Of a stretch of DNA of 64,000 nucleotides, positions 38,700 through 60,769 are shown piece after piece. The notes under the pieces are model-generated. The model searched no databases. It saw only the letters and a program-made list of their open reading frames with translations, and was not told the DNA's origin. Position numbers and translations under genes: made by a program. Position 1 is the stretch's first letter, and every line of letters begins with the position of its first letter. The stretch is from Solwaraspora sp. WMMD791 (lineage in GTDB: Bacteria > Actinomycetota > Actinomycetes > Mycobacteriales > Micromonosporaceae). The stretch lies in the NCBI RefSeq assembly GCF_029581195.1, contig NZ_CP120737.1, positions 434,001 through 498,000 of the forward strand. The letters run 5' to 3'.

Positions 38700-38944
38700 A
38701 GTCGCTCGCCTCCCGTGACGTCGCCGGATCGTCCGTTGTGCCCCATTGTCGGCCGCCGTTGCCCTGTCGCCACTGCCGATCACGTCGGACGACGCGTACA
38801 CCCAGGCTGGCCGCAGGCCATCCTATGGGCCCTGCGGTCAATGCGTAAAACCCGCGCACCCGCCCTGTGGACAACTGTCGGACCCGGTCCGCCGAATACG
38901 TACGGCATTCACGTCCATGCAGGCCAGCCCGGGGATCCCGGCGC

Positions 38945-40505: not shown

Positions 40506-43500
40506 ATGAGTACTGCACTCGAGCCGCGCGATCTGGTGATCGCCTACGACCCGTGCGGCCACATCGAGTCGAGCCCACGCATCGCTGGTGCGGTGCGCCG
40601 GGGCGGCGGAATCGGCGTGCTCGACCTGGCTGACGGGTCGGCACGCCCCATGCGGGCGTTGGACCAGCTCGTCGCCTGGTCCGCTGAGCCGGTCGCGGTC
40701 CGTGTACCGGCCAACTGCCTGGCCTCGCTCGACCAGGTCGAGCAGGTCACCGGCGGCCAGATCGACCTGGTGGTGGTCACCGGCGAACTGCCGTGGCGCC
40801 TCGACCAGCTGGTGGCCCGTTACCGGGTGCTCGCCGAAGTGACCAGTCTCACTGCCGCCCGTGCGGCGGTCGGGGCCGGCGTGCACGGCCTGATCGCCAG
40901 GGGCATGGAGTCCGGCGGCGAGGTCGGCGAGCTGAGCACCTTCATCCTGGTGCAACAGTTGGTGGCGGCCGACCTCGGCGTACCCGTCTGGGCCCTGGGC
41001 GGCATCGGTCCGCACACCGCCGCCGCCTGCGTGGCCGGCGGCGCGGCCGGCGTCGTGCTGGACACCCAGCTCGCGCTGATGCCCGAATCAGACCTGCCGA
41101 CGGACGTGATGGCCACGATCCGCCGGATGGACGGATCCGAGGCCGTCCTGGTCGACGGCTTCCGGGGCGTCGCCCGGACCCCCCGGCGGCCCGGCACGAC
41201 CGGTACGCCGCCCCGGGCCGACCTGCTGCCCGTCGGCCAGGACGGCTGGCTCGCCGCCGAGTTCCGTCGACGCTGGGCCGACAGCGCCGCCGCCGTACGG
41301 GGTCTGCGGGCCGCCATCGTCGAGGCCGTGACCGACGGCACCGCCGCCGACGTGCTGCGACCCGACGGCCCCCTGGCCCGGGCCCTGGGGTTGCGCGTGC
41401 CGGTCGCCCAAGGGCCGATGACCCGGGTCAGCGACGAGGCCGGCTTCGCCGCGGCGGTCGCCGCCGACGGAGCCTTGCCGTTCATCGCGCTGGCGCTGGC
41501 CACCGCCGAGCGTACCGAGGAGATGCTCACCGCGACCGCCGCCCGCCTCGGTGACCGACCGTGGGGTGTCGGCGTGCTCGGGTTCGCCCCCGACGACATC
41601 CGCACCGCGCAACTGGAGGTGATCAGGCGGGTCCGCCCCGGGTTCGCGATCATCGCTGGCGGGCGGCCGCCTCAGGCCAAGGAGCTGGAACGGGAAGGGA
41701 TCCGTACCTTCCTGCACGTGCCGTCGCCCGGCCTGCTGCGGCAGTTCCTACGGTCCGGGGCACGGCGGTTCATCTTCGAAGGCGCCGAATGTGGCGGTCA
41801 TGTCGGGCCACGGGCCAGCTTCCCGCTGTGGGAGGCGCAGCTGGCCGTCCTCGCCGAACATGTCGACGCCGTCCCGGCCGAGCAGGCCGCCGACCTGCAG
41901 GTGTTCTTCGCCGGTGGCATCCACGACGACCGCTCGGCGGCGATGGTCGCCGCCATGGCGGCACCACTGACCCGGCGCGGGGTGCAGGTCGGGGTGCTGA
42001 TGGGCACCGCCTACCTGTTCACCAACGAGGCGGTCGACCACGGCGCGATCCGTCCGGCGTTCTCCCGGATGGCCCGCTCGGCGACCCGTACCGCGCTGCT
42101 GGAGACCGCTCCTGGCCACGTCACCCGCTGTCTGCACAGCGACTTCGTCGACGACTTCCATGCCCTGCGGGTCGAGCTGGAGTCGGCCGGTCTGGCCAAC
42201 CGCCAGATCTGGGAGCACCTCGAACTGCTCAACGTCGGGCGGCTGCGGATCGCGAGCAAGGGCAAGAAACGCGACGGCGACGCCCTGGTCGACGTCGACG
42301 AGGCCACCCAGCTCAGCGAAGGGCTGTTCATGGCCGGGCAGGTCGCGGTGCTGCGCGACAGCGAGACGACCGTGGCCGAGCTGCACCGTACGGTCACCGA
42401 CCAGGCAGCGGCCTTCCACCAGAGCCGTGCCGGGGCGCTGCGCGACGCCTGGGCCGCGCCGGCACAGGAACAGGACGCCGCGCCGCTGGACATCGCCGTC
42501 GTCGGGATGGCCTGCATGCTGCCGAACTCGCCGGATCTGGCGGCCTTCTGGCGGACGGTGCTCGACAGCGTCGACGCCGTCACCGAGGTACCGCCACACC
42601 GTTGGAACCCGGACATCTACTACGCCCCCGAGGTCGGTCCCGGCCAGACCGGTCGGATCAGCGTCTCCAAGTGGGGCGGTTTCCTCGCCGAGGTGCCCTT
42701 CGACGCCATCGCGTACGGGATCCCGCCCGCCGCGTTGGCCAGCATCGACCCGACCCAGCTGCTGGCCCTGGAGGTCTCACACCGCGCCCTGGTCGACGCC
42801 GGCTACACCCCCGGTCGCGACGGTGTCGACCACTCCCGGACCGGTGTGATCTTCGGTGCCGAGGCCGGCAGCGACATGGGGCACGCCCAGACGCTGCGGA
42901 CGATGCTGCCGGCGTACCTGGCGGACGTCCCCGCGGAACTGGCCGACCAGCTGCCGACGGTGACCGAGGACTCGTTCCCCGGCATCCTGGCCAACGTCAT
43001 CGCCGGGCGGGTCGCCAACCGGCTCGACCTCGGCGGACCCAACTACACGGTCGACGCGGCGTGCGCCTCGTCGCTGGCCGCCATGGACGCGGCCTGCAAG
43101 GAACTCGCCTCCGGCGGCAGCGATCTGATGATCTGCGGTGGCGCGGACCTGCACAACGGCATCAACGACTATCTGATGTTCACCTCGGCGCACGCCCTGT
43201 CGCCGACCGGCCGCTGCCGGTCCTTCGACAGCACCGGCGACGGCATCGCGCTCGGCGAGGGCGTTGCCGCCGTCGTGCTCAAGCGGCTGTCCGACGCCGA
43301 GCGGGACGGGGACCGGATCTACGCGGTGATCAAGGGCCTGGGCGGCTCCAGCGACGGCCGGGCACTCGGCCTGACCGCACCACGGGCGGACGGCCAGCGG
43401 CGGGCGTTGGACCGCGCGTACCGGCAGGCCGGGGTGTCCCCGGCGCAGGTCGGCCTGATCGAGGCGCACGGCACCGGGACCGTCGTCGGTGACCGCACCG

Positions 43501-46500
43501 AGCTGGAGACGTTGACCACCGTGTTCAACGAGGCCGGCGCGGCACCGGGCAGCTGCACCCTCGGCTCGGTCAAGTCGCAGATCGGCCACACCAAGTGCGT
43601 CGCCGGACTCGCCGGTCTGATCAAGGCATCGCTGGCGCTGTACACCGGGGTACGCCCACCGACCCTGCACCTGACCCGGCCGAATCCGGCCTGGCACCCC
43701 GACCACAGCCCGTTCGCCTTCTACACCCAGGCCCGGCCGTGGGCGACGCCGGCGGCCGAGCGGATCGCCGGGGTGAGCGCGTTCGGCTTCGGCGGCACCA
43801 ACTTCCACGCGGTGCTCGCCGCGTACCCCAACGCCCCGGAGCCCCGGCACGCCCGGGACGACTGGCCGGCCGAGCTGTTCTGCTTCCGCGCCGGCGACCG
43901 GGCCGGTGCCCAGCCGGGCATCCGGCAGCTGCTGGCCACCATCGACACCCGCGACGCCATGGGCCGGCGCTGGCGGCTGCGTGACCTCGCCGCTGCCCAG
44001 TCCCGCGAGTGCGAGACCCGCTCCGGCCCCGTGCAGGTCGCCGTCGTTGCCAGCGACCTCGACGAACTCGCCGGCCTGCTGCGGCGGGCGCTCGACGGCG
44101 ACCACGACCCGGCTAGCGGCCTGCACCAGCCGGCCGCCACCCACACCGGCGGCAAGGTCGCGTTCCTGTTCCCGGGCCAGGGCAGCCAACGGCCCGGTGC
44201 TCTGGCCGACCTGTTCGTGGCCTTCCCCGAGCTGCGCCGGTTCCTCGACCTCGGCCGTGATCTGGCCGGTCCGCTGTTCCCACCGGCCGCCTTCGACCCC
44301 GACGGTGACCGTGGCCAGCAGGAGCGGGTCCGCGACACCCGGGTCGCACAACCGGTGCTGGGAATCGGCGGGCTGGCCATGCACCACCTGCTCGGCCGGG
44401 TCAACGTGCGTCCCGACCTGGCCGGCGGACACAGCTACGGCGAACTGGTCGCCCTCTGCGTCGCCGGCGCGTTCGACGACCGTACCCTGCTGGCGCTGAG
44501 CCGGCAGCGGGCCGAGGCGATCCTCGCGGCGGCCGGTACCGATCCCGGCACCATGGCGGCGGTCGCCGCCACCGCTGACCGGATCAGCGAGGTCCTGTCA
44601 GCGGCGGGACTGTCCGACGAGGTCGTCCTGGCCAACCACAACGGGCCACAGCAGGTGGTGATCTCCGGACCCACCTCGGCGGTGCGTCAGGCGGTGACCG
44701 CGCTCAAGGCGGGCGGTGTCTCAGCGCGGCCGATCCCGGTGGCCTGCGCGTTCCACAGCCCGGTAGTGGCCGGCGGCGTGCCGGCCTTCCGGTCCGTCCT
44801 GGCCGGGCACCGGGTGGCCGCGCCGGCTTTCCCGGTCTGGTCGAACCGCACGGCCGACAGCTATCCGACCAACCCCGAGGCGGTACGCGACGAGCTGGCC
44901 GGCCAGATCGCCGCGCCGGTGCGGTTCGTCGACGAGATCGAGTCGATGTACGCCGCCGGCGCCCGGATCTTCGTCGAGGCCGGCCCGGGCAAGGTTCTCA
45001 GTCGGCTGGTCGACGCCGTACTGGGCGACCGGCCGCATCTGGCCGTGGCCGTCGAGGGACGGCGCACCGGCGGGCTGCGCGGTTTCCTGTCCACCCTCGC
45101 CGAGCTGGCGTGCGCCGGTGTCCCGGTGCAGACCGACTGGCTGTTCCGTGGCCGCCGGATCGCCGAGGTCACCGCGTCAGCCTCGTCGAGCCGGCCGATC
45201 TGGACGGTCGACGGGCAGCTGGTACGCGACCAGCACGGCCGGCCGCTGCCTGGCGGCATGACGCCTCCCCGACAAATCAAGGAGCTGTCGATGACTGCAT
45301 CCACCGAGGCCGGAAACGGCCATGCTCACGGCAACGTGTCCGGTGACGGTAACGGCAACGGTGTCACGCACGTGGCCGGCAACGGTAACGGCAACGGTGT
45401 CACGCACGTGGCCGGCAACGGTAACGGCAACGGCGTCGCGCACGTGGCCGACAACGGCAACGGGATCAGCCATCCTCTGGGCGCCGGTGACGGTGTCCGG
45501 CACGTCGCCGGCGCCATGGCCGGCTACCGGGACGGGCGCGACGAACTGATCAGCGAGTTCCTGCGGACGAGTCGGGACCTGATCGCCTCCCAGCGGGACG
45601 TGCTGCTGGCGTACTTCGGGGAGCGGCCGGCAGCCGGCAACGGGTGGGTCGAACCCGCGGCGTACCAGTCGATGGTTGCCCAGCCGGCGATCGCCGCGCC
45701 GAGCCGCTATCCCGAGGTGGTGGTGCCGCCCAGCGCGCCCCCGGTGACGGACGTGCCGGACGTGCCGGCCATCCCGGCGTCGCCTGCCGTCTCGTCGGCT
45801 CCGCCGGCACCCGCGGTCCGCTCGGCTCCACCGGCACCCGCCGTCCAGCCCGCTGCGGTGCCGCGTGCGGAGGTGGCCGCGGTCACGACGGTCCACGGCA
45901 GCGCCGTACCGGCCGTGGCCGCCAAGCCGGTAGCGGCCCCTACGGGCCTGGTATCGACGGCAGCGACGGTGACCGCGACGGTCGCGGTACGGCCGTCGGT
46001 GCCGTCGGTGGAGGTGGCGCAGTTCCAGGAGGCGATCCTGGCGGTGTTGAGTGAGCGGACCGGGTATCCGGTGGATCTGATCGAGTTGGATCTGGATCTT
46101 GAGGCGGATCTGAGTATCGATTCGATCAAGCGGGCTGAGGTCGCGGGTGAGGTGGCGACCCGGTTGCGGTTGTCGGTGGATGGTGACGAGTCGGAGTTGG
46201 AGGATCTGGTGCGGGCCCGGACGGTCCGGACCATGGTGGCTTGGCTGGCCGAGAAGATGGCGGCTGCACCCACCGCCGTCGCATCGCCGGCGCCGGTGAC
46301 CGCACCTGATCCGGCACCTGTCGTCACGGCACCTGTCGTCACGGCACCTGCGGTCTCCGTGCCGACGCCGACGCCGGCTGCGGCACCGGTTCCGGCGTCG
46401 GTGCCGTCGGTGGAGGTGGCGCAGTTCCAGGAGGCGATCCTGGCGGTGTTGAGTGAGCGGACCGGGTATCCGGTGGATCTGATCGAGTTGGATCTGGATC

Positions 46501-48566
46501 TTGAGGCGGATCTGAGTATCGATTCGATCAAGCGGGCTGAGGTCGCGGGTGAGGTGGCGACCCGGTTGCGGTTGTCGGTGGATGGTGACGAGTCGGAGTT
46601 GGAGGATCTGGTGCGGGCCCGGACGGTCCGGACCATGGTGGCTTGGCTGGCCGAGAAGATGGCGGCTGCACCCACCGCCGTCGCATCGCCGGCGCCGGTG
46701 ACCGCACCTGATCCGGCACCTGTCGTCACGGCACCTGCGGTCTCCGCGCCGACGCCGACGCCGGCTGCGGCACCGGTTCCGGCGTCGGTGCCGTCGGTGG
46801 AGGTGGCGCAGTTCCAGGAGGCGATCCTGGCGGTGTTGAGTGAGCGGACCGGGTATCCGGTGGATCTGATCGAGTTGGATCTGGATCTTGAGGCGGATCT
46901 GAGTATCGATTCGATCAAGCGGGCTGAGGTCGCGGGTGAGGTGGCGACCCGGTTGCGGTTGTCGGTGGATGGTGACGAGTCGGAGTTGGAGGATCTGGTG
47001 CGGGCCCGGACGGTCCGGACCATGGTGGCTTGGCTGGCCGAGAAGATGGCGGCCGACCAGGCACCCGAGGCGGCTCCCGCAGCGTCGGCTGCCGTGCCTG
47101 CCGGCCCCGACCGCGGTACCGCGCCCCGTCGACTCGTCGCTCGGCCGGTGCCGGCCACCGGCGCGGTCGTCGCGCCCGAGGCCCTCGCCGGCGCCCGGTT
47201 CCTGATCACCGGAGGGTCACCGGCGCTGGCACCGCTGGCCGAGCAGCTCGCCCAGCGTGGCGCGGCAGGTGCCACCGGATCGATCCACGCCGGCGGAGCG
47301 GACCAGGTGGCCGGCTACGACGGCGTGATCATCCTGGACGGGCTGAGCGACAGCGGCGGACCGCTGCTGCCCGGCATCTTCCCGTTCATCAAGCAGGCCC
47401 TCGCCGCAGGTGTGCGGTGGCTGGTCGCCGCCGGCACCGCAGGTCCGCGTACCGACGGGTTCGCCGGTCTTTTCCGCACCATCAGCCGTGAGTACCCGCA
47501 GGTCTCGGCGACCTACCTGGAAGTACCGGCGGGCGCCGACCACAGCCGTCTCGCCACCGGTCTGGTCACCGAACTGCTCAGCGGTGGGCAGACCCCGATC
47601 GTCACCTGGTCGACGACCGGGCGGCAGACCGTCGACCTGACCTCGGTCGATCTCGGCCCGCTCGCCGCAGGCGGTGCCGGGCCCGCCGGTGACGGTGCCG
47701 CCGAGGCCCAGGCGATCGGTCTGGACCAGGACTCGGTGGTGGTGCTGGTCGGCGGTGCCCGAGGCATCACCCCCTGGTTCGCCCGCACTCTGGCCGCCGC
47801 AAGCCGGTGCCGCATCGAACTGGTCGGCCGGACCCCGCTGCCGGAGGAGACGGAACCCCCGGCGTTGGCCGCCGCTGCGGACAAGCCGGCGCTGCGGGCC
47901 GCGCTGGTGGCCCAGGGGATGCGGGCACCGGCGGAGATCGATCGCGCGGCGACCGCGATCCTCGCCGCCCGGGAGGTCCGCGCGACCCTGGACGAGCTTC
48001 GGGAACTCGGCAGTCAGGTGCGCTACCACAGCCTCGACGTCACCGACGCCGACGCCACCCGGCAACTGCTCAAGGAGATCCAGGGCGAGCGGGGACGCAT
48101 CGACGGTCTGGTCTACGCGGCCGGCCGGATCGAGGACAAGCTGATCGCCGAGAAGGACCCCGCGTCGTTCGACCGGGTGTTCCAGACGAAGGTGCAGGGC
48201 GCGGTGACGGTGCTCGACGCACTGCGCGACGGTGCCGACCCGCGTTTCGTGGTGCTGTTCGGCAGCATCGCGGCTGCGTACGGCAACCGGGGTCAGAGCG
48301 ACTACGCCGCCGCCAACGACGCGCTCGACCGGATCGGCGGCCGCTGGGCAGCCGACACCGGCGTGCGCTGCCTGACCGTGCACTGGGGCCCATGGGCGCC
48401 GGGCTCCGTACACGGCGGGATGGTCAGCGCGGAACTGAGCCGGGAGTACGCCCGCCGGGGCATCGACCTGATCGATCCCGAGGAAGGCGCGCTGAGTCTG
48501 CTGCGTGAACTCGCCTGGGGCGACCCGGCGGTCACCTCCGTGGTCTACACCGCCTCGGGATGGTGA
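40506..48566 (+). CDS. Iterative PUFA/glycolipid-type synthase 1: ER-ER-KS-AT-(ACP)3-KR
   Basis: A 2686-residue multi-domain synthase. Domain order: a nitronate-monooxygenase-like barrel (about 1-230), a second and complete barrel (about 298-640) with ECGGHVGP and catalytic His 432, resembling PfaD-type trans-enoyl reductases. KS (662-1100) has Cys 853 in DAACASS plus both His motifs EAHGTG and KSQIGHT. AT (1215-1510) has FPGQGSQ and Ser 1310 in GHSYGEL. A 12-residue repeat linker precedes three ACPs (Ser 1873, 2007, 2136). KR (2410-2680) has GGARGIT, Ser 2587 and Tyr 2600. It iteratively elongates and reduces an acyl chain. GGGAG lies 5 nt before the ATG. It overlaps synthase 2 by 7 nt. Confidence 0.9.
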   Translation: MSTALEPRDLVIAYDPCGHIESSPRIAGAVRRGGGIGVLDLADGSARPMRALDQLVAWSAEPVAVRVPANCLASLDQVEQVTGGQIDLVVVTGELPWRLDQLVARYRVLAEVTSLTAARAAVGAGVHGLIARGMESGGEVGELSTFILVQQLVAADLGVPVWALGGIGPHTAAACVAGGAAGVVLDTQLALMPESDLPTDVMATIRRMDGSEAVLVDGFRGVARTPRRPGTTGTPPRADLLPVGQDGWLAAEFRRRWADSAAAVRGLRAAIVEAVTDGTAADVLRPDGPLARALGLRVPVAQGPMTRVSDEAGFAAAVAADGALPFIALALATAERTEEMLTATAARLGDRPWGVGVLGFAPDDIRTAQLEVIRRVRPGFAIIAGGRPPQAKELEREGIRTFLHVPSPGLLRQFLRSGARRFIFEGAECGGHVGPRASFPLWEAQLAVLAEHVDAVPAEQAADLQVFFAGGIHDDRSAAMVAAMAAPLTRRGVQVGVLMGTAYLFTNEAVDHGAIRPAFSRMARSATRTALLETAPGHVTRCLHSDFVDDFHALRVELESAGLANRQIWEHLELLNVGRLRIASKGKKRDGDALVDVDEATQLSEGLFMAGQVAVLRDSETTVAELHRTVTDQAAAFHQSRAGALRDAWAAPAQEQDAAPLDIAVVGMACMLPNSPDLAAFWRTVLDSVDAVTEVPPHRWNPDIYYAPEVGPGQTGRISVSKWGGFLAEVPFDAIAYGIPPAALASIDPTQLLALEVSHRALVDAGYTPGRDGVDHSRTGVIFGAEAGSDMGHAQTLRTMLPAYLADVPAELADQLPTVTEDSFPGILANVIAGRVANRLDLGGPNYTVDAACASSLAAMDAACKELASGGSDLMICGGADLHNGINDYLMFTSAHALSPTGRCRSFDSTGDGIALGEGVAAVVLKRLSDAERDGDRIYAVIKGLGGSSDGRALGLTAPRADGQRRALDRAYRQAGVSPAQVGLIEAHGTGTVVGDRTELETLTTVFNEAGAAPGSCTLGSVKSQIGHTKCVAGLAGLIKASLALYTGVRPPTLHLTRPNPAWHPDHSPFAFYTQARPWATPAAERIAGVSAFGFGGTNFHAVLAAYPNAPEPRHARDDWPAELFCFRAGDRAGAQPGIRQLLATIDTRDAMGRRWRLRDLAAAQSRECETRSGPVQVAVVASDLDELAGLLRRALDGDHDPASGLHQPAATHTGGKVAFLFPGQGSQRPGALADLFVAFPELRRFLDLGRDLAGPLFPPAAFDPDGDRGQQERVRDTRVAQPVLGIGGLAMHHLLGRVNVRPDLAGGHSYGELVALCVAGAFDDRTLLALSRQRAEAILAAAGTDPGTMAAVAATADRISEVLSAAGLSDEVVLANHNGPQQVVISGPTSAVRQAVTALKAGGVSARPIPVACAFHSPVVAGGVPAFRSVLAGHRVAAPAFPVWSNRTADSYPTNPEAVRDELAGQIAAPVRFVDEIESMYAAGARIFVEAGPGKVLSRLVDAVLGDRPHLAVAVEGRRTGGLRGFLSTLAELACAGVPVQTDWLFRGRRIAEVTASASSSRPIWTVDGQLVRDQHGRPLPGGMTPPRQIKELSMTASTEAGNGHAHGNVSGDGNGNGVTHVAGNGNGNGVTHVAGNGNGNGVAHVADNGNGISHPLGAGDGVRHVAGAMAGYRDGRDELISEFLRTSRDLIASQRDVLLAYFGERPAAGNGWVEPAAYQSMVAQPAIAAPSRYPEVVVPPSAPPVTDVPDVPAIPASPAVSSAPPAPAVRSAPPAPAVQPAAVPRAEVAAVTTVHGSAVPAVAAKPVAAPTGLVSTAATVTATVAVRPSVPSVEVAQFQEAILAVLSERTGYPVDLIELDLDLEADLSIDSIKRAEVAGEVATRLRLSVDGDESELEDLVRARTVRTMVAWLAEKMAAAPTAVASPAPVTAPDPAPVVTAPVVTAPAVSVPTPTPAAAPVPASVPSVEVAQFQEAILAVLSERTGYPVDLIELDLDLEADLSIDSIKRAEVAGEVATRLRLSVDGDESELEDLVRARTVRTMVAWLAEKMAAAPTAVASPAPVTAPDPAPVVTAPAVSAPTPTPAAAPVPASVPSVEVAQFQEAILAVLSERTGYPVDLIELDLDLEADLSIDSIKRAEVAGEVATRLRLSVDGDESELEDLVRARTVRTMVAWLAEKMAADQAPEAAPAASAAVPAGPDRGTAPRRLVARPVPATGAVVAPEALAGARFLITGGSPALAPLAEQLAQRGAAGATGSIHAGGADQVAGYDGVIILDGLSDSGGPLLPGIFPFIKQALAAGVRWLVAAGTAGPRTDGFAGLFRTISREYPQVSATYLEVPAGADHSRLATGLVTELLSGGQTPIVTWSTTGRQTVDLTSVDLGPLAAGGAGPAGDGAAEAQAIGLDQDSVVVLVGGARGITPWFARTLAAASRCRIELVGRTPLPEETEPPALAAAADKPALRAALVAQGMRAPAEIDRAATAILAAREVRATLDELRELGSQVRYHSLDVTDADATRQLLKEIQGERGRIDGLVYAAGRIEDKLIAEKDPASFDRVFQTKVQGAVTVLDALRDGADPRFVVLFGSIAAAYGNRGQSDYAAANDALDRIGGRWAADTGVRCLTVHWGPWAPGSVHGGMVSAELSREYARRGIDLIDPEEGALSLLRELAWGDPAVTSVVYTASGW
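45348..45455 (+). repeat. Three tandem 36-bp repeats (12-aa unit) in synthase 1
   Basis: Units 45348-45383, 45384-45419 and 45420-45455 encode GNGNGVTHVAGN-type 12-mers; the first two are identical in amino acids and nearly identical in DNA. They form a flexible linker between AT and the ACP series. Equal-length in-frame copies point to recent slippage or recombination. Confidence 0.85.
45999..47049 (+). repeat. Three DNA-identical ACP repeats
   Basis: Starting at 45999, 46401 and 46788, the ACP cores are the same at DNA level over about 260 bp each; periods are 402 and 387 bp, the difference being 15 bp (VVTAP) in the linker. Codons in these cores use many GAT, TTG, AGT and CTT, unlike the GAC/CTG/AGC habit of flanking domains. 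Identity at silent sites indicates recent duplication or ongoing gene conversion. Confidence 0.9.
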
Positions 48567-53362: not shown

Positions 53363-53380
53363 GCTCGGCCCTGACGGAGG

Positions 53381-53480
53381 TGCCGACGAGCCGATCGGCG
53401 TGCCGACAAGCTGACTGCCGTCCCGACAAGCTGACCGACGTCCCGACAAGCCGACTGACGTCCCGACAAGGAGACCCGCA
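53381..53480 (+). repeat. Five 20-bp tandem repeats before the ACP gene
   Basis: Five units of exactly 20 bp from 53381 share the core CCGACAAG (first copy CCGACGAG). The last unit contains the ACP ribosome site AAGGAG. They fill nearly all of the 120-bp gap between synthase 2 and the ACP gene. The spacing is not a multiple of three and there are no spacers, so these are neither coding nor CRISPR repeats. Confidence 0.85.
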
Positions 53481-53482
53481 TC

Positions 53483-53797
53483 ATGCCCGCCGACCACGAC
53501 ACCATCCTGACGGAGATCTCGCAGATGCTGCGCGCGGTGCTGCCCGGGATCGATCCGGACGAAGAGATCACGATGGACACCAGCTTCCGTGACGACCTGG
53601 AGATGGAGAGCATCGACGTCATTTCGCTGGCCGGGCGGCTGCAGGCCCGGTACGGCGACTCCGTCAACTTCGCTCAGTTCGTCGCGGGGCTCGACGTGGA
53701 CTCGCTGCGCGCGCTGCGGGTCGGTGAGCTGGTCGGGCACATCTCCGCCGCGCTGGACGGACCGCCAGCCACGGTGGCGCAGGTGGCCGGCCAGTGA
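53483..53797 (+). CDS. Free acyl carrier protein
   Basis: A 104-residue type II ACP. The phosphopantetheine motif is LEMESIDVISL with Ser 43. Helix arrangement ILTEISQMLRAVLPG and FRDDLEMESIDV is normal for ACPs. It may receive the chain for release or feed starter units to the synthases; the PPTase domain of synthase 2 would modify it. The ATG lies after the AAGGAG in the last 20-bp repeat. Its stop overlaps the hydrolase start (GTGA), so both are translationally coupled. Confidence 0.88.
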   Translation: MPADHDTILTEISQMLRAVLPGIDPDEEITMDTSFRDDLEMESIDVISLAGRLQARYGDSVNFAQFVAGLDVDSLRALRVGELVGHISAALDGPPATVAQVAGQ

Positions 53798-54711
53798 CGA
53801 TGATCCAGGTCAACGGCCTGGTGACGCACGTCCAGGAACTGCCGGCGGTGGCGGCCGGTCCGCCCGCCGGGGCAGCTGCCACCGACCTGGACGGCGGTCC
53901 GCCCGCCGATCCGGGTGGCGGTCCGCCCGCCGATCCGGCGGGCGGTCCAGTTGCCGAAGCTGTTGCCGGCCGGCCGGTCGCGGTCCTGATCCACGGTATC
54001 GGGCCGGACAGCCTGGCCAGCTGGTATCTCAGCCTGGCGCACCCACTGGCCGATGCCGGGTTCCGGGTGATCATGTACGACCTGCGGGGCCACGGACGGA
54101 CCGAGCGACCGCCGACCGGCTACCGGATGGACGACCTGGTCGACGACCTGGTCGGGCTGCTGGACCGGCTCGGCGTCGACGTACCGGTGCATCTGCTCGG
54201 CAACTCGCTGGGCGGTTCCATCGCCTTCGGATACGCGGCCCGGTACCCGGACCGGGTCGCCTCGATGGTCGCGGTGGAGTCGGCGCCTGCCACCGCACAG
54301 TGGCTCGCCCGGGTGGGCCGGCAGCTGGTCCGGGCCGTGCATCCGGAGGGAGACGGCGGTCCGTTGGCGACGGCCACCCGTGGCGGTGAGCGGGGTGCCC
54401 GCTACGCCGCGGCGGTCCGCCAGCTCGTCGCCGCCACCACCGCCGGTCGGGACCTACCGGCCAGCACCCCCGCCGATCCGGCGGCGGTACGGGCGATCAC
54501 CTGCCCGGTGCTCGGCATCTTCGGTAGCGACTCGTCCGCTGCCGATCTGGCGCCGGCACTGGTCGAACTACTGCCGCAGACCGAGCTGGCGATCGTTCCC
54601 GGGCACCGGCACGCGGTGCTGATCACCGCCCGCGACCAGGTCCGCGAACTGGTGCTGCCCTGGCTCGCCCGGCAACTTGCCGACACCGGGCAGCCCGCCC
54701 TGCGCCGTTGA
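53794..54711 (+). CDS. Alpha/beta hydrolase, candidate chain-releasing thioesterase
   Basis: A 305-residue alpha/beta hydrolase. Nucleophile elbow GNSLGG with Ser 138; HGIGPDSLASWY forms the oxyanion region; the acid lies in LGIFGSDSSAAD and the His in PGHRHAVLI. The N-terminal 60 residues carry a low-complexity GGPPADPGG duplication inserted between strands. Lying between a free ACP and a sulfotransferase, it may hydrolyse or transesterify the acyl thioester. GTG 53794 overlaps the ACP stop; ATG 53800 is an alternative. Confidence 0.8.
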   Translation: MTMIQVNGLVTHVQELPAVAAGPPAGAAATDLDGGPPADPGGGPPADPAGGPVAEAVAGRPVAVLIHGIGPDSLASWYLSLAHPLADAGFRVIMYDLRGHGRTERPPTGYRMDDLVDDLVGLLDRLGVDVPVHLLGNSLGGSIAFGYAARYPDRVASMVAVESAPATAQWLARVGRQLVRAVHPEGDGGPLATATRGGERGARYAAAVRQLVAATTAGRDLPASTPADPAAVRAITCPVLGIFGSDSSAADLAPALVELLPQTELAIVPGHRHAVLITARDQVRELVLPWLARQLADTGQPALRR

Positions 54712-54739
54712 CGTCGTCGTTCTCACCCAGGAGGTTCCG

Positions 54740-55699
54740 ATGCAGTTCGAGGCGCCCGGCCGGGCGATCATCATCAGCAGCGGGCGGTGTGGCTCCACGC
54801 TGCTGTCCGACCTGATCGTCGAGGAGCCGTCGACCCTGTCCGTCCAGGAGTTCTTCATGGCCACCCCGTCGTGGGCGAAGGCCACTGAGCCGATCACCGG
54901 GGCGGCGTACTGGCAGGTGCTGAGCAGCCCGAAGCCGGAGCTTGCCACCCTGTTCGCCATCGGCCTGCCGCCGAAGGAGGTCCGCTACCCGGCGGACGGC
55001 AGGTGGGCCGGCAACCTGACCGAGCTGCCGCAGCTGCTGGCGATCACCCTGCCGAAGCTCACCGACGATCCGGACGGCCTGTTCGACCAGCTCGCCGGGG
55101 AGGTACCGGACTTCCCCGAGCAGCCCTTCGTCGACCACCACCGGATGTTCCTGGACCTGCTCGCCCGGTTGACCGGCCGGCGCCGCTGGGTGGAGCGCTC
55201 CGGCGGGTCCAGCCAGATCGCCCCGTACCTGCTGCGGTCGTTCCCGGACACCAGGATCGTCTATCTGACCCGCAACTGGGCGGACACGGCGCGGTCGATG
55301 AGCCGGCACTCGTCGTTCCAGCTCATCCAGCTGCGGCTGGAGTTCGTCTCCCGGTGCGGCGTGGACCCCTTCCAGATGGGTCCGGACCAGCGGGTGCCGG
55401 CGGATCTCGAGCATCTGCTACCCGACCGGATCACCGCCGACCTGCTCCGTGAGCGGGGCGAGGACAGCACCCGTTACCTCGGGCTCTGCGCGTTCATGGC
55501 GGCACAGGCGGAGCAGGCACTCGCCGACAACCCGCCGGCGCACCTGCTCACCATGACCTACGAGGACCTGGTCGCCGACCCGGAGCCGCAGTTGGCCCGG
55601 CTCGGTGAGTTCCTGGAGTTCGACGACCCGTCCGGCTGGGCCCGCCAGGTCGCCGGCCGGGTGGGCAAGGGCGCGGTACGGCAGACCGCAGCCGTGTGA
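54740..55699 (+). CDS. PAPS-dependent sulfotransferase
   Basis: A 319-residue sulfotransferase. The 5'-phosphosulfate loop is IIISSGRCGSTLLSDLI; the 3'-phosphate site is IVYLTRNWADTARSMSRH with Arg and Ser; the WVERSGGSSQ segment belongs to the same fold. The likely acceptor is a hydroxyl on the lipid or polyketide made by the synthases, as in sulfolipid pathways. The ATG at 54740 is chosen for a perfect AGGAGG 5 nt upstream. A longer open frame from 54677 overlaps the hydrolase and lacks a ribosome site. Confidence 0.85.
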   Translation: MQFEAPGRAIIISSGRCGSTLLSDLIVEEPSTLSVQEFFMATPSWAKATEPITGAAYWQVLSSPKPELATLFAIGLPPKEVRYPADGRWAGNLTELPQLLAITLPKLTDDPDGLFDQLAGEVPDFPEQPFVDHHRMFLDLLARLTGRRRWVERSGGSSQIAPYLLRSFPDTRIVYLTRNWADTARSMSRHSSFQLIQLRLEFVSRCGVDPFQMGPDQRVPADLEHLLPDRITADLLRERGEDSTRYLGLCAFMAAQAEQALADNPPAHLLTMTYEDLVADPEPQLARLGEFLEFDDPSGWARQVAGRVGKGAVRQTAAV

Positions 55700-55747
55700 A
55701 CAGCAGACATCCGCACCAGCCAACCACAGTAGAGGGAGAAGTGTTTG

Positions 55748-57625
55748 ATGCGTAGGTTGCGCCCATCCGCGAGCCGGTCGGTTGCCGCCGCCGTGCTCGC
55801 TGGGCTGCTTCTGGCCGCCGGTCCGGCCGCCGCCGCACCGGTGGCCGGTACCGACTCGGCAGCCACCACTGACGGCAGGCACGGTGGACACCACGGCGGG
55901 ACCCGCTACCAGAGCACCCTGCTGGCCAAGGCATCGGCCGACGAGTGTTTCGTCGACATCGGCGTCGACTATCCGCCGGGACCGCCCTGCGAGGTAGGGC
56001 AGCCCAAGGTCAACCAGGCCTACGTCTGGGGACTGACCCGCTACAAGGACCGGTTGTGGTTCGGCACCGGCGCCAACCCCAACTGCCTGACCAGCGGGAA
56101 CAACCTGCGCAACACCCAGCCGACCCGCAACGCCGACTGGGTCTGCGAGTACGGCCAGAGCCAGATCGCCCGGGCCAATCCGGACCTGCCGCCAACTGTC
56201 GGTGACCACCGCGCTCCCCGCGTGTACACCTACGACCTGAAGCGGCACAGCATGGTCGAACGTACTGGCGACCTGCGCGGGGCCTCACCCGACGACGAGG
56301 CCCGGCTGCTGCGGACCGTCGGCTTCCGGGCCGCCGGCAACCACCGCGGGGTGGTGCTGCTCGGCGGCCCGGCGCTCGGTGCCACGATCAACCTGTTCGC
56401 GTTCGACGCGGACACCGGTGCCTACCTCGGCTCGCGGAACTTCACCGAGTACGGCAACATCCGGCACTTCGTCATCGCCGACGGCGAGATGTACGCCGGG
56501 GTCGGGGTGGGCCCCAACGGTGGTCAGCGCGGGCTGGTGCTGCGGTGGACCGGGAGCAAGTCCGACCCGTTCAGCTTCCTGCCGGTGGCGGACCTGCCGG
56601 CGCAGGCGGTCGACCTGACCGTGCACCAGGGCCGGATCTTCGTCACCACCTGGCCGGGCGCGGAGGACACCCAGTCGTTCGGCCCGGGGCCGGTGTCACC
56701 GACCGCCGGCACCGCCGACGAACCTACCGACGAGGAACCGGTCCCGGCGAACATCGCCGGGGTCTGGATGAGTCCGAAGCTGTCCGCGAACGGACCCGGC
56801 CTGGACAGCCGGGACGTGGACGGGTGGACCCGGGTGTGGCACGTGATGGAGTACGAACCGGACCCGGTCGTCGCCCGCACCTACGGGTTGGGCGGGATCG
56901 CCTCCTACGGTGGCTACCTCTACTGGGGGACCATGCACGTGCCCTTCAAGTCGACGACGGTGCACCTGGCGGTGTATCCGCCGACCGACGAGCAGGGGGT
57001 ACGGGACTCGGTACGCAACACCCAGCGCGCGATCGGCATCTTCCGGGGGAGTTTCGGTCATGGCCACGGCCACGCCCACGGGCAGCACGGTGGCGGACAC
57101 GACCGGGTCGACCTGCTCTACGGTGCCAGTGAGCTGCCGGCCTACGACCCGGCGGCCGGCGACGGTACCGGCGTCTGGGCCAGCACGTCGACCGGTTACA
57201 CCCCGCTCTACGGGGCGTCCGGGTTCGACAACCCGATGCTCAACTACACCTGGAAGATGGTCGTCGCCGGTGGCCGGCTCTATGTCGGCACGATGGACTG
57301 GAGCTACCTGGCGAAGGAGTTGCAGCAGGAGGAGCCGCCACCGCCGACCGCCGCCGCCCGCACCGGTGACGACGACGATGAGGAGGAACTGGCCTTCGGC
57401 GCAGACCTCTGGGTCTTCGAGTCGCCGCACCACTCCGCCAAGAAGGTGGACAACGCGGGTCTCGGTAACTACCTCAATTACGGCGTACGTAGCATGGTGG
57501 TGGACGGGTCCACGGTATACCTCGGTATGGCCAACCCGATGAATCTGCGGACAGATCCGACAGATGACGTCCCTGAGGGCGGCTGGGAGTTGATCAAGTT
57601 GACTCCGAAACACCACCACCACTAA
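55748..57625 (+). CDS. Secreted His-rich protein of unknown function
   Basis: A 625-residue exported protein. A Sec signal peptide (about 1-33, GLLLAAGPAAAA) precedes beta-rich sequence with repeated Gly-Tyr and W/F-rich blocks such as QAYVWGLTRYKDRLWFGTGA, RHFVIADGEMYAGVGVG and GRLYVGTMDWSYL, suggesting a propeller. Two His-rich stretches stand out: GHGHGHAHGQHGGGHD near 440 and HHHH at the very C-terminus, possible metal sites. I recognise no family. It sits between the sulfotransferase and the esterase lipoprotein in one direction, so an envelope role with the lipid product is plausible. An ATG at 55748 follows GAGGGAG; a TTG at 55745 precedes it. Confidence 0.75.
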   Translation: MRRLRPSASRSVAAAVLAGLLLAAGPAAAAPVAGTDSAATTDGRHGGHHGGTRYQSTLLAKASADECFVDIGVDYPPGPPCEVGQPKVNQAYVWGLTRYKDRLWFGTGANPNCLTSGNNLRNTQPTRNADWVCEYGQSQIARANPDLPPTVGDHRAPRVYTYDLKRHSMVERTGDLRGASPDDEARLLRTVGFRAAGNHRGVVLLGGPALGATINLFAFDADTGAYLGSRNFTEYGNIRHFVIADGEMYAGVGVGPNGGQRGLVLRWTGSKSDPFSFLPVADLPAQAVDLTVHQGRIFVTTWPGAEDTQSFGPGPVSPTAGTADEPTDEEPVPANIAGVWMSPKLSANGPGLDSRDVDGWTRVWHVMEYEPDPVVARTYGLGGIASYGGYLYWGTMHVPFKSTTVHLAVYPPTDEQGVRDSVRNTQRAIGIFRGSFGHGHGHAHGQHGGGHDRVDLLYGASELPAYDPAAGDGTGVWASTSTGYTPLYGASGFDNPMLNYTWKMVVAGGRLYVGTMDWSYLAKELQQEEPPPPTAAARTGDDDDEEELAFGADLWVFESPHHSAKKVDNAGLGNYLNYGVRSMVVDGSTVYLGMANPMNLRTDPTDDVPEGGWELIKLTPKHHHH

Positions 57626-57641
57626 CAGAAGCAGGTGAGCG

Positions 57642-58649
57642 ATGTCGCGGTTCCGACGCCGGTCGACGGTTCTGGTCGTCACGGGAGTCCTCTGGACACT
57701 CGTCGCAGGCTGCACGTCGGCGTCGGACCCGGCGCCACCGACATCGGGTGCCACCCCGCCGTCCGTGGACGGCGGGGTGGCCGCTCCGGTCGACACCCCA
57801 CCGGTCGGCTCGTCGGCGGGGTCGATAACCGTCGGCGGGTACGAGCGGACCTACCGGGTGTACCGTCCGGCCAGCGTCGCCGAGACGACGTCGGTCCCGG
57901 TCGTCGTCATGCTGCACGGCCTGCTCGGCAGCGGGCGGCAGGCCGAATCCTGGTACGGCTGGAACGCCGTCGCCGACCAGCACGGGTTCGTCGTGGTCTA
58001 CCCGGACTCCCGTAACCGGGCCTGGGCGGTGACCGAGGAGTGCTGCGGTGCCTCGGCCCGCGACGGCGTCGACGACGTCGGGTTCGTCCTCGCCCTGGTG
58101 GAGTCGCTGGGGCAGCGACTCGCCTTCGATCCCGACCGTCACTACCTCGCCGGCATGTCCAACGGCGGCATGCTGGCCTATCGGATCGCCTGCGACAGCT
58201 CGACCTTCGCCGCGGTGACCGGGGTGGCCACGACCATGCTCGGTGACTGCCCGGCCCCGGAGCCGATCTCCGTTCTGCACATCCACGGCACCGGCGACGA
58301 GACGATTCCCTACACCGGGGGGCCGGGCCGCCGTGACGGCGCCGGCAACGGCCGGGTGCCGGACAAGGTCGACGGCCCCGCTATACCGGATCTCGTGGGC
58401 CGGTGGCGGCAGGTCGACGAGTGCGGTGCCGCGCGGACGACCGCACAAAACGGAGTCACCACCTCGGTGGCCGACTGCGCCGGGGGCCGCGGCGTCACCC
58501 TGATCACCATCGACGGCGCCGGACACCAGTGGCCGGGCTCCGAGATGTCCGCCGCGGGCCGGCTGCTCGGCCTGGACCCGCCCGCTACCGAACTGGACGC
58601 CACCGCGACCAGCTGGCAGTTCTTCGCCTCGCATCCCAGACCCGCCTGA
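57642..58649 (+). CDS. LpqC-like esterase lipoprotein (PHB depolymerase/CE1 type)
   Basis: A 335-residue lipoprotein: signal VVTGVLWTLVAGC with lipobox LVAGC. The mature enzyme is an alpha/beta hydrolase of the LpqC/PHB-depolymerase group: HGLLGSGRQAESWYGWN, nucleophile AGMSNGGM, Asp in HIHGTGDETIPY and His in DGAGHQWPGS. It would hydrolyse esters on the outside of the cell, perhaps processing the exported product. It lies 16 nt after the His-rich protein gene, with a GCAGGTGAG ribosome site, in one operon. Confidence 0.82.
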   Translation: MSRFRRRSTVLVVTGVLWTLVAGCTSASDPAPPTSGATPPSVDGGVAAPVDTPPVGSSAGSITVGGYERTYRVYRPASVAETTSVPVVVMLHGLLGSGRQAESWYGWNAVADQHGFVVVYPDSRNRAWAVTEECCGASARDGVDDVGFVLALVESLGQRLAFDPDRHYLAGMSNGGMLAYRIACDSSTFAAVTGVATTMLGDCPAPEPISVLHIHGTGDETIPYTGGPGRRDGAGNGRVPDKVDGPAIPDLVGRWRQVDECGAARTTAQNGVTTSVADCAGGRGVTLITIDGAGHQWPGSEMSAAGRLLGLDPPATELDATATSWQFFASHPRPA

Positions 58650-58661
58650 GCAGGAGAGCAG

Positions 58662-59930
58662 ATGCCCAGTACCGGCACCCATCCGTTGGTCGACGGTCGC
58701 GCCGCCGACGCGACCCCGGCCGGCGAGTCCGGCGTCCTTGCCGCCGGCCTGGCCGGCCAGCGCGGCGCCGGCCCGGCCGTCGAGGTCGTCGATCTGGTCA
58801 AGCGGTTTCCAGGCCAGGACCGCAACGCCATCGACTCGCTGTCGTTCGCGGTCCACCCCGGTGAGGTCTTCGGCCTGCTGGGGCCCAATGGCGCCGGCAA
58901 GTCGACCACGGTCGGCGTGCTCACCACGACGATCCGGGCCAGCTCCGGTACGGCCCGGGTGGACGGCGTCGACGTCGTCCGGCACCCGGTGGCGGCCCGG
59001 ACACGGTTCGCGGTGGTGCCGCAGTACAACAACCTGGACCGGGCGTTGACTCCCCGGCAGAACCTGCTCAGCCACGCCGCCTACCACGGGGTGCCCCGGG
59101 CCGAGCGGCGCAGCCGGGCCGACCGGTTGCTGACCGAGTTCGGTCTGGACAAGCAGGCCGACTCGCGGGTCGACTTCTTCTCCGGCGGAATGTCCCAGCG
59201 CCTGATGATCGCCCGGGCGCTGATGCACGACCCCCGGGTGGTCTTCCTCGACGAACCGACCAACGGGTTGGAGCCGCAGGCCCGACTGCTGATCCGGACC
59301 CGGATCCGGCAGCTGCGCGAGCGCGGGGTGACCGTCGTGCTGACCAGCCACGAGATGACCGAGGTGGCGGAGCTGGCCGACCGGGTGGCGATCGTCGACC
59401 ACGGCCGGCTGCTGGCCCTGGACACCCCGGCCAACCTGGTACGCGGGGTGGCCGGCCGGGCGGTGCTCGATCTGGCCCTGCGCCCCGGGCCGGGCGACGG
59501 GGCACAGGATCTGCTCACCGCGCTCACCGCGCTCGACGGTGTCCGTACCGGGGAGATCACCGCCGGCGGTGGCGCGGCTGCCGGCCCGACGGGCCGTGGT
59601 GGTCCCGGGCCGGCCGGGCTGGCCGCCGACCCGCGGATCGCGGCACGTGTCGCCGCCGCCAGGTCCGATCCGCGTAAGGCGGCGAAACTCGCCGCCGCCC
59701 GCAACGATCCACGGTTCGCCGCGCTGTTCGCGGCCGCACCGGCCGCCGCAGCCGACGGGCCGACGGGGGAGATCCGGCTGCGGCTGCACCTCGACGCTGA
59801 TCCCGCCGCCGTGCTCGGACCGGCGTTGACGGTGCTGACCGACCGCGCGGCCCAGTTGACCGACGTGCACATCGGCAAGCCCGGCCTGGAGGACATCTTC
59901 CTGAGCCTGACCGGTAAGGAGATCCGTTGA
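58662..59930 (+). CDS. ABC exporter ATP-binding protein (DrrA-like)
   Basis: A 422-residue ABC ATPase. Walker A GPNGAGKST, signature SGGMSQRLMIARAL, Walker B VVFLDEPTNGLE and the switch His in LTSHEM are all intact, with RFAVVPQYNNLDRALTPRQNLL typical of DrrA. A C-terminal insertion after about 290 carries a repeated DPRIAARVAAARSDPRK/NDPRFAALFAAAP motif, absent from ordinary DrrA. It energises export with the permease downstream; both overlap by 4 nt. It lies 12 nt after the esterase gene, so the exporter is part of the cluster transcript. Confidence 0.9.
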   Translation: MPSTGTHPLVDGRAADATPAGESGVLAAGLAGQRGAGPAVEVVDLVKRFPGQDRNAIDSLSFAVHPGEVFGLLGPNGAGKSTTVGVLTTTIRASSGTARVDGVDVVRHPVAARTRFAVVPQYNNLDRALTPRQNLLSHAAYHGVPRAERRSRADRLLTEFGLDKQADSRVDFFSGGMSQRLMIARALMHDPRVVFLDEPTNGLEPQARLLIRTRIRQLRERGVTVVLTSHEMTEVAELADRVAIVDHGRLLALDTPANLVRGVAGRAVLDLALRPGPGDGAQDLLTALTALDGVRTGEITAGGGAAAGPTGRGGPGPAGLAADPRIAARVAAARSDPRKAAKLAAARNDPRFAALFAAAPAAAADGPTGEIRLRLHLDADPAAVLGPALTVLTDRAAQLTDVHIGKPGLEDIFLSLTGKEIR

Positions 59931-60769
59931 GCCTGGCCGAGGTCACCCCCGTACCGGATCACGCCACCGCGCCGTCGGCGCCGGTCGCTCCCGGCCGACC
60001 GCCGGTCGCGCGGGCATTCGGCGCGATCCTGCTGCGGGACCTGTTCGTCGCCGGCAAGGACATCTGGTTCGTCCTGGCCCAGGTCCTGCTCACCCCGCTG
60101 TTCATGTTGTTCATCTTCACCCGGGTGCTGACGATGCAGGGCATCGTCGGCGCCGGCTTCGCGGACATCCTGCTGCCCGGCACGGTCGCGCTCGCCACCT
60201 TCACCACGTCGCTGCAGAGTGTCGCGGTGCCGCTGGTCAAGGAGTTCGGGTTCACCCGCGAGATCGAGGACCGGCTGCTGGCACCGCTGCCGACGACGTT
60301 GGTCGCGGTCGGCAAACTGGTGGTCGCGACCCTCCGGGGGCTGTTCGCGGCGGCCGTGGTCTACCCGCTGGGTGCGCTGGTGGTCGGCGCTGCTCCCGGC
60401 AGCTGGTCGGCGCTGCCGTTGTCGGTGCTGGTGGTGCTGCTCGCCGGGTGGGTGGGTGCGGGGCTGGGCATGATGTTGGCGACGGTGCTGCCGCTGCAGC
60501 GGATCCAGGCCACCTTCTCGTTGTTCGTGACCCCGATCATCTGGACCGGCTGTGTGCACTATCCGTGGCAGCGGTTGGCCGAGATGCCCTGGTTCCAGGT
60601 GGCCACCGCGGTCAACCCGATGACGTACGCCGCCGAGGCGCTGCGCGGCGCACTGGCACCGCACGTCACCCACCTGCCGATCGGGCTGTGTCTGCTGGTT
60701 CTGACGCTGGTGGCGGCCGCCGTCACGGCCGCCGCGCTGGCCACGTTCACCCGCCGCGCGCGGCGCTGA
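59927..60769 (+). CDS. ABC-2 type permease (DrrB-like)
   Basis: A 280-residue ABC-2 permease with six predicted helices; RAFGAILLRDLFVAGKDIWF and the conserved GTVALATFTTSLQSVAVPLVKEFGFTREIEDRLLAPLP region identify the DrrB group. A TTG start at 59927 is chosen because AAGGAG (59916-59921) lies 5 nt upstream and it overlaps the ATPase stop as TTGA. With the ATPase it forms an exporter like that for anthracyclines or glycolipids; here the likely cargo is the cluster product. It is the last cluster gene; the next gene is on the opposite strand. Confidence 0.85.
   Translation: MSLAEVTPVPDHATAPSAPVAPGRPPVARAFGAILLRDLFVAGKDIWFVLAQVLLTPLFMLFIFTRVLTMQGIVGAGFADILLPGTVALATFTTSLQSVAVPLVKEFGFTREIEDRLLAPLPTTLVAVGKLVVATLRGLFAAAVVYPLGALVVGAAPGSWSALPLSVLVVLLAGWVGAGLGMMLATVLPLQRIQATFSLFVTPIIWTGCVHYPWQRLAEMPWFQVATAVNPMTYAAEALRGALAPHVTHLPIGLCLLVLTLVAAAVTAAALATFTRRARR

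Follow-up and report, generated by a model that had tools for sequence, protein, structure and literature searches.

A sulfotransferase in the glycosyltransferase slot of a PUFA synthase-like cluster suggests a sulfated lipid in one clade of Micromonosporaceae

The window analysed here is a 64,000-nucleotide (nt) stretch of the 6.93 Mb, single-contig genome of Solwaraspora sp. WMMD791 (GC of the window, 72%). At 40506-60769 on the + strand it carries nine genes that encode two iterative synthases (A and B) related to polyunsaturated fatty acid (PUFA) synthases, a free acyl carrier protein (ACP), a hydrolase (HYD), a sulfotransferase (ST), a secreted protein (SEC), an esterase lipoprotein (EST) and a DrrAB-like exporter. 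In relatives outside the clade of the window, the position of ST is occupied by a glycosyltransferase (GT). A, B and ST probably make a sulfated long-chain lipid that depends on 3'-phosphoadenosine-5'-phosphosulfate (PAPS) and is exported and handled outside the cell. The broader proposal, that a single switch from sugar to sulfate created a clade-specific exported sulfolipid accompanied by a dedicated, travelling extracellular SEC family, is more tentative: plausible, but leaning towards doubt. A preliminary description of this region as a candidate undescribed sulfated-lipid pathway was partly supported, in that the core is of a known kind, the head-group variant is new and the product is inferred.

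Gene layout and the exchange of the head-group gene

All nine reading frames are open and have a coding-type third-position GC (0.84-0.94), which confirmed the co-directional gene set of the preliminary description. Its domain strings for both synthases, ER-ER-KS-AT-ACP3-KR in A and KS-AT-DH-PPTase in B (ER, enoyl reductase; KS, ketosynthase; AT, acyltransferase; KR, ketoreductase; DH, dehydratase; PPTase, phosphopantetheinyl transferase), were recovered with Pfam and NCBIfam, and domain searches also recovered the ACP, hydrolase, sulfotransferase, secreted protein, esterase lipoprotein and DrrAB-like pair. The features are as follows.

40506-48566, + strand: gene A, 2686 amino acids (aa), ER1-ER2-KS-AT-ACP-ACP-ACP-KR, PfaD plus PfaA-like (PfaA model TIGR02813 964.9 bits, under the curated cut-off of 1010.1)
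40506-41375, + strand: ER1, partial and divergent NMO/FabK-like domain, present in relatives (PF03060 39 bits; TIGR03151 55 bits)
41376-42455, + strand: ER2, full-length NMO/FabK-like (PfaD-type) enoyl reductase (PF03060 69 bits; TIGR03151 85 bits, under cut-off)
42489-43835, + strand: KS of A (Cys-His-His present)
44154-45047, + strand: AT of A (GHSYG, catalytic His, malonyl-type Arg in RQRA)
46032-47036, + strand: three ACP domains of A (DSIK motif at aa 1870, 2004 and 2133)
47736-48398, + strand: KR of A (PF08659 117 bits)
48560-53362, + strand: gene B, 1600 aa, KS-AT-DH-PPTase (Pfam and NCBIfam domains)
50450-51058, + strand: AT of B (Ser and His intact, malonyl-type Arg absent)
51839-52591, + strand: DH of B, polyketide synthase (PKS)-type PS-DH (PF14765 47.9 bits; LLDHCF...P and DNALQ)
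53003-53233, + strand: PPTase core of B, ACPS-type (PF01648 36 bits; GVGIDIVE, WAAKEA)
53483-53797, + strand: free ACP (PF00550 30.2 bits; phosphopantetheine site EMESIDV)
53794-54711, + strand: HYD, alpha/beta hydrolase (S138, E162 and H273 common to the sulfo and glyco versions)
54740-55699, + strand: ST, PAPS-type sulfotransferase in the head-group slot (PF13469 52.7 bits; GRCGSTLL, TRNWxDTARSMSRH)
55748-57625, + strand: SEC, secreted protein, perhaps with a propeller-like fold (no convincing relative in Pfam or PDB)
57642-58649, + strand: EST, PHB-depolymerase-like esterase lipoprotein (PF10503; NF050058 168 bits, cut-off 150; lipobox VAGC)
58662-59930, + strand: DrrA-like ABC ATPase (TIGR01188 270.7 bits, under the cut-off of 312)
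59927-60769, + strand: DrrB-like ABC-2 permease (PF01061; TIGR01247 56.8 bits, under the cut-off of 223)

The eight junctions measure, in gene order, -7, 120, -4, 25, 48, 16, 12 and -4 nt. The earlier statement that most of them overlap or stay below 50 nt was therefore correct for seven of the eight, the only longer one being the 120-nt gap 5' of the free ACP gene. ST more likely starts at ATG 54740, which is preceded by AGGAGG, than at TTG 54677, and the HYD-ST junction then lengthens from 25 to 28 nt. The gene order was kept over dozens of genomes, which excludes chance.

Gene-neighbourhood clustering revealed a conserved gene 3' of HYD in loci outside the clade of the window. Pfam and NCBIfam placed it among UGT/EryCIII/macrolide-type glycosyltransferases, and a class I methyltransferase gene often comes after it. 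The content of this slot was surveyed by tblastn (E <= 1e-10), using a single GT and a single ST query, in 99 loci, namely the best 80 of at least 582 relatives from a contig scan with B as query and 19 more. L130, from a genome of the window's family, repeats L051, Plantactinospora endophytica; their B rows are identical, and the sampled family is read as Micromonosporaceae on this ground. GT was present and ST absent in all 73 loci outside the clade that reach the slot, three of which come from the window's own family (L120-L122) and some from other classes, whereas ST was present and GT absent in all 20 loci of the window's clade; the other six (L013, L029, L042, L078, L082 and L084) end before the slot. 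The slot gene adjoins HYD, or the ACP gene in L047 and L049, where HYD gave no match and the slot gene is GT.

Two trees of B were built from rows picked to limit near copies: a quick tree with 55 of the 99, in which three rows without a readable slot were counted as neither GT nor ST, and a careful tree with 30 rows, for which the acidobacterial row and two distant actinobacterial ones served as root. L127_B was dropped after the first tree (very long branch, probably the wrong KS). Both trees need one GT/ST change. In the rooted tree, the ST rows formed one clade (100/100) nested in GT rows, with neighbouring forks not settled. The most economical account is that ST took the place of GT once.

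The synthase and ST were also coupled across genomes. Two samples were used, 150 Micromonosporaceae genomes and an even phylum-wide set of 396 genomes; a limited number of first-look candidates was scored per genome (family sample: 15-16 for ST and DH, 8 for SEC; phylum sample: 6 for DH, 3 for SEC), and absences are accordingly not absolute. The ST profile (E <= 1e-30) matched 34 of the 150 family genomes, 25 closely (at least 485 bits) and nine only distantly, and the DH of B (E <= 1e-20) matched 28, of which 25 scored at least 419 bits. The close-DH and close-ST genomes were the same 25, and in each of them ST follows DH on the same strand at a distance of 1633-2066 nt; the remaining three DH-bearing genomes carry the GT version. 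The coupling of a PUFA synthase- or heterocyst glycolipid (hgl) synthase-like enzyme to a sulfotransferase, as proposed in the preliminary description, was thus borne out by this shared occurrence and by ST in the GT slot of relatives. Because the same genomes carry both and ST sits in that slot, a sulfated lipid is now a better-founded guess than it was.

Alternatively, ST might act on an unrelated substrate and sit in the operon for regulation only. The lack of a biochemical link and the more distant ST relatives outside the cluster would fit such a role, but the exact co-occurrence and the strict replacement of GT in one slot argue strongly against it, and we regard it as highly improbable. 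Those distant relatives (28-36% identical, same family) occupy eleven places, one being a second copy in G104. The nine places examined (L099-L107) gave no match to ER, KR, DH, PPTase, SEC, EST, Drr or GT/methyltransferase; three of them have a KS-AT at 34-36% (L099, L101 and L102), and two have a 30% HYD-type match (L102 and L106).

The synthase core and its relatives

Searches of the relatives' loci with 14 window segments (tblastn, threshold 1e-5) found the string ER-ER-KS-AT-KR / KS-AT-DH-PPTase / ACP / HYD in Streptomyces, Kitasatospora, Pseudonocardiaceae, a Williamsia and Sulfidibacter corallicola (Acidobacteriota), and the synthase core also in other actinobacterial classes. The exceptions were loci cut at contig ends and L047 and L049, which lack a HYD match at this threshold. 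In the phylum-wide sample, the DH of B (E <= 1e-20) occurred in nine of the 396 genomes. The fused tandem ER and C-terminal PPTase, which the preliminary description named together with the sulfotransferase as setting the cluster apart, are therefore widespread among relatives. The S. corallicola locus (L080) is a GT version with two HYD-like genes and may reflect transfer between phyla.

Nor is the kind of pathway undescribed. The survey of Shulse and Allen (PMC3098273), as far as its text was examined, had catalogued actinobacterial Pfa-like clusters in 2011, including one named Type M, and the products of most types were uncharacterised at that date. The present core fits these uncharacterised "secondary lipid synthases", and Type M would be the likely match. 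Type M likewise pairs an actinobacterial PfaA-like cluster with a linked PPTase; no glycosyl- or sulfotransferase is mentioned with it in the examined text of that survey. The comparison was made with the published text, the named Type M genomes being absent from the 80 loci. Upstream of the PF01648 core, the PPTase of B has NGRP (P1a, x(G/D)xP) and LSLAH (P1b', hShxH); P0 (hRxhLS) and FNxSH are absent. According to the same text, these motifs are common to Types M-T, and they are consequently not specific to M.

Within A, ER1 showed only a partial NMO match covering profile positions 139-240. Tandem ACPs and a FabK/PfaD-type ER are both present, as in PUFA synthases. The three ACPs are near-identical around each DSIK motif, which suggests recent duplication or conversion, and the EMESIDV site of the free ACP differs from theirs. 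Counting ACPs by motif gives too low a number in cut loci, and the count was relied on for the window alone. Both A and B have their KS and AT catalytic residues, and those of B (KS Cys-His-His, AT Ser-His) were intact in 98 of 98 aligned rows. The AT of B, starred in the preliminary description, is not visibly dead; what it lacks is the malonyl-type Arg that the AT of A carries. PfaB, the named terminal acyltransferase, has lost the malonyl-type Arg and also the His of GHS according to a 2026 paper (PMC12895367), whereas B keeps GHS.

Compared with PfaA-E, the cluster shares KS-AT-ACPn-KR, an ER of the FabK/NMO type and a second KS-AT without the malonyl Arg, as in PfaB, but here the ER is fused to A, the PPTase is fused to B and a PS-DH takes the place of the FabA-type DH. 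Searches for a FabA-type domain gave no match, either in the DH segment (up to E 1) or across A and B (up to E 0.01). With a PKS-type DH and no FabA-type match, methylene-interrupted PUFAs are not expected, and "PUFA" denotes kinship and not product.

Other systems resemble the cluster in part. The hgl synthases are iterative synthases of kindred parts, and the relatives of the cluster pair the core with a glycosyltransferase. The hgl synthase has a thioester reductase and gives a fatty alcohol head, whereas no thioester reductase match was found in A or B and ST replaces GT here. Mycobacterial sulfolipid-1, made with Pks2, Stf0 and exporters, likewise combines an iterative synthase, a PAPS sulfotransferase and lipid processing on the outer face, but A is no Pks2 (NF041183, 433 of 2400 bits) and ST belongs to Sulfotransfer_3. 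In PUFA-PKS-NRPS (non-ribosomal peptide synthetase) hybrids such as zeamines and chitinimines, a PUFA-like synthase was also recruited to a specialised lipid (PMC13291983), but no modular PKS or NRPS is among the nine genes; a term search of the main text of that 2026 survey did not find "sulfotransferase". Genes similar to omega-3 PUFA synthases are described in Kutzneria albida in the part of the report consulted (PMC4210621). In the literature searched (titles and abstract starts; few subscription papers), neither a sulfotransferase with such a synthase nor a product for either version, including any later assignment for this cluster type, was found.

A polyene- or enediyne-like polyketide tailored by ST (or GT), with DrrAB as a self-resistance exporter, would offer another explanation for the cluster. 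Enediyne PKSs (PKSEs) have the DH fused to the PPTase, and B combines a PKS-type DH with a PPTase in one protein; the GT is nearest to macrolide-type enzymes (TIGR01426 148 bits, under the cut-off of 260), and exporters of the DrrAB type handle both drugs and lipids. A PKSE, however, is a single KS-AT-ACP-KR-DH-PPTase protein, whereas two proteins, two KS-AT and two ER occur here. The best score of A is against PfaA (TIGR02813, 965 bits, narrowly short of the cut-off), and its FabK-type ER and tandem ACPs favour chain reduction. No enediyne accessory name appeared among the matches listed for the nine genes, although no search was aimed at such genes. A polyketide is thus unlikely, and a lipid product is preferred.

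Sulfotransferase, hydrolase and the proposed pathway

ST has the features of a PAPS sulfotransferase, combining PF13469 with two stretches that we take to be the 5'- and 3'-PAPS-binding motifs: GRCGSTLL and the stretch with R179 and S187. The residues of GRCGSTLL, R179 and S187 are invariant in 12 of 12 aligned sequences. An APS kinase gene is present in the same genome.

On this basis, A and B, a two-protein iterative synthase of the actinobacterial secondary-lipid kind, would build a long acyl chain from malonyl units, with condensation, ketoreduction and enoyl reduction by A and dehydration and activation of the ACPs by B. The AT of B, without the malonyl-type Arg, would probably hand the finished chain on in the manner of PfaB, perhaps to the free ACP. 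The next step, decoration of a hydroxyl of the chain, would fall to the glycosyltransferase in most lineages; in the Micromonosporaceae clade, the PAPS-dependent ST would have taken it over, sulfating a hydroxyl. HYD would release the chain, and the DrrAB-type exporter (linked in part of the clade only), SEC and EST would export, hold or trim the product outside. For the sulfated, exported long-chain lipid proposed earlier, the ST-synthase coupling and the slot exchange stand as support. The computation establishes the domains, the conserved catalytic residues, the mutual exclusion of GT and ST, their single exchange on the tree and the joint occurrence of synthase, ST and SEC, whereas we infer the reactions, an acyl-chain hydroxyl as acceptor, retention of the sulfate, the length and structure of the chain, and export.

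Sulfation might instead create a leaving group. In such a route, ST would sulfate the beta-hydroxyl of the ACP-bound chain, and hydrolysis by HYD with decarboxylation would yield a long, sulfate-free terminal alkene, a dissociated version of the ST-thioesterase (TE) pair of CurM and the cyanobacterial olefin synthase (OLS). As described in the text seen of PMC6274090, CurM decarboxylates a sulfated beta-hydroxyacyl chain to a terminal alkene. As in CurM/OLS, a carrier protein, a sulfotransferase and a hydrolase stand side by side in the cluster, with ACP, HYD and ST adjacent; these are separate genes in the order ACP-HYD-ST, unlike the fused ACP-ST-TE, with weak ST likeness and no close TE match. 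HYD has Ser138, Glu162 (24 residues on) and His273, and the acid of the CurM TE presumably lies at a position similar to Glu162. Searched against PDB, the ST profile matched the CurM ST weakly (E 0.0029), and Teg14 and Teg12 ranked above it.

The HYD alignment (73 rows, 12 of the ST and 61 of the GT version) weakens this route. Position 138 is Ser, or Cys in seven GT rows, 162 is Glu (Asp in one ST row) and 273 is His throughout; all 61 GT-version rows thus share the Ser/Cys-Glu-His set. Since the same residues occur with GT, HYD does not seem to be built for sulfated chains. Nor is Glu162 necessarily the acidic residue of the triad, a role that position 246 could fill instead: it lies close to where a late acid is usually found and carries Asp or Glu in 59 of the 73 rows. 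Only positions 45 (a gap), 69, 70 and 77 separated the ST from the GT version (85%/80% thresholds). The CurM TE was neither among the eight PDB chains matched by the HYD profile (E <= 1e-20) nor among the best 60 of 276 PDB matches of HYD alone, and a hydrocarbon would have no obvious need for SEC, EST and an exporter. The alkene route is therefore improbable, and retention of the sulfate in an exported lipid is preferred. The Cys nucleophile, seen in 7 of the 61 aligned GT loci (L036 and six others), might mark acyl transfer over hydrolysis.

Several points nevertheless weigh against a sulfated, exported lipid. The 25 genomes are related and do not count as independent cases, and the 73-versus-20 contrast is one event on the tree. 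The best PDB matches of ST were weak (Teg14, Teg12 and the CurM ST), and ST is not close to any characterised lipid sulfotransferase; by analogy with CurM/OLS, a sulfotransferase can act as a transient activating step. In 4 of the 25 genomes SEC is unlinked to ST, and unlinked paralogs of SEC occur as well. Nor is the export part uniform: of the 20 ST loci, only 9 have a linked DrrAB and 16 a linked EST, and DrrAB and EST therefore belong to parts of the clade. These counts concern linked copies, with some ST loci ending 1.6-4 kb past EST and no search made for an unlinked exporter.

If the proposal holds, the clade would represent a natural experiment in lipid head-group exchange and the source of a new class of bacterial sulfated lipid. 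From the GT/ST exchange, Streptomyces-type strains are predicted to make a lipid that bears a sugar and the Micromonosporaceae clade one that bears sulfate, perhaps on the same acyl scaffold. An orphan cluster class thereby becomes testable by paired lipidomics. The SEC family, which in the family sample occurred almost only with this pathway, could provide an entry to lipid handling at the outer surface.

The secreted protein, its paralogs and flanking sequence

SEC was found in all 25 ST genomes, and two of the other 125 family genomes gave weaker matches (237 and 173 bits). It lies directly 3' of ST in 21 of the 25; the unlinked copies are 14-15 kb away on the other strand (G078 and G092) or on another contig (G095 and G104). 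Three of the 396 phylum-sample genomes matched, one of them, a weaker match (296 bits), outside the family. In the 66 B-scan loci that lie outside the clade, tblastn at 1e-5 detected neither SEC nor EST.

The protein had been described as secreted and His-rich; secretion was supported, but its relatives do not share the His-rich loop and tail. The SEC profile gave no PDB match up to E 10 and only weak, scattered Pfam matches up to E 1 (best E 0.022). SEC is perhaps propeller-like: a regular expression for a GxLYxGT-like strand matched it seven times, with an overlap between two of the matches, and one paralog reached 18.7 bits against Reg_prop, slightly short of the cut-off of 20.4. Three tandem copies lie 3' of ST in G056, G090 and G111 (genus g30) and two in G119. 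In the genus of the window, all seven genomes that matched SEC carry a second copy that is unlinked. That of the window's own genome (882 bits; L134:9617-11698, G000:C1:1539892-1541688) is flanked, by eye, by a lipoprotein-like and a subtilase-like reading frame. The same inspection around the unlinked SEC copies of this genome and G003, and around the distant SEC in G044, gave no functional hint.

Elsewhere in the window, both strands are open over more than 930 codons at 36006-38978, where the minus-strand reading frame ending at 36006 was chosen as coding by third-position GC.

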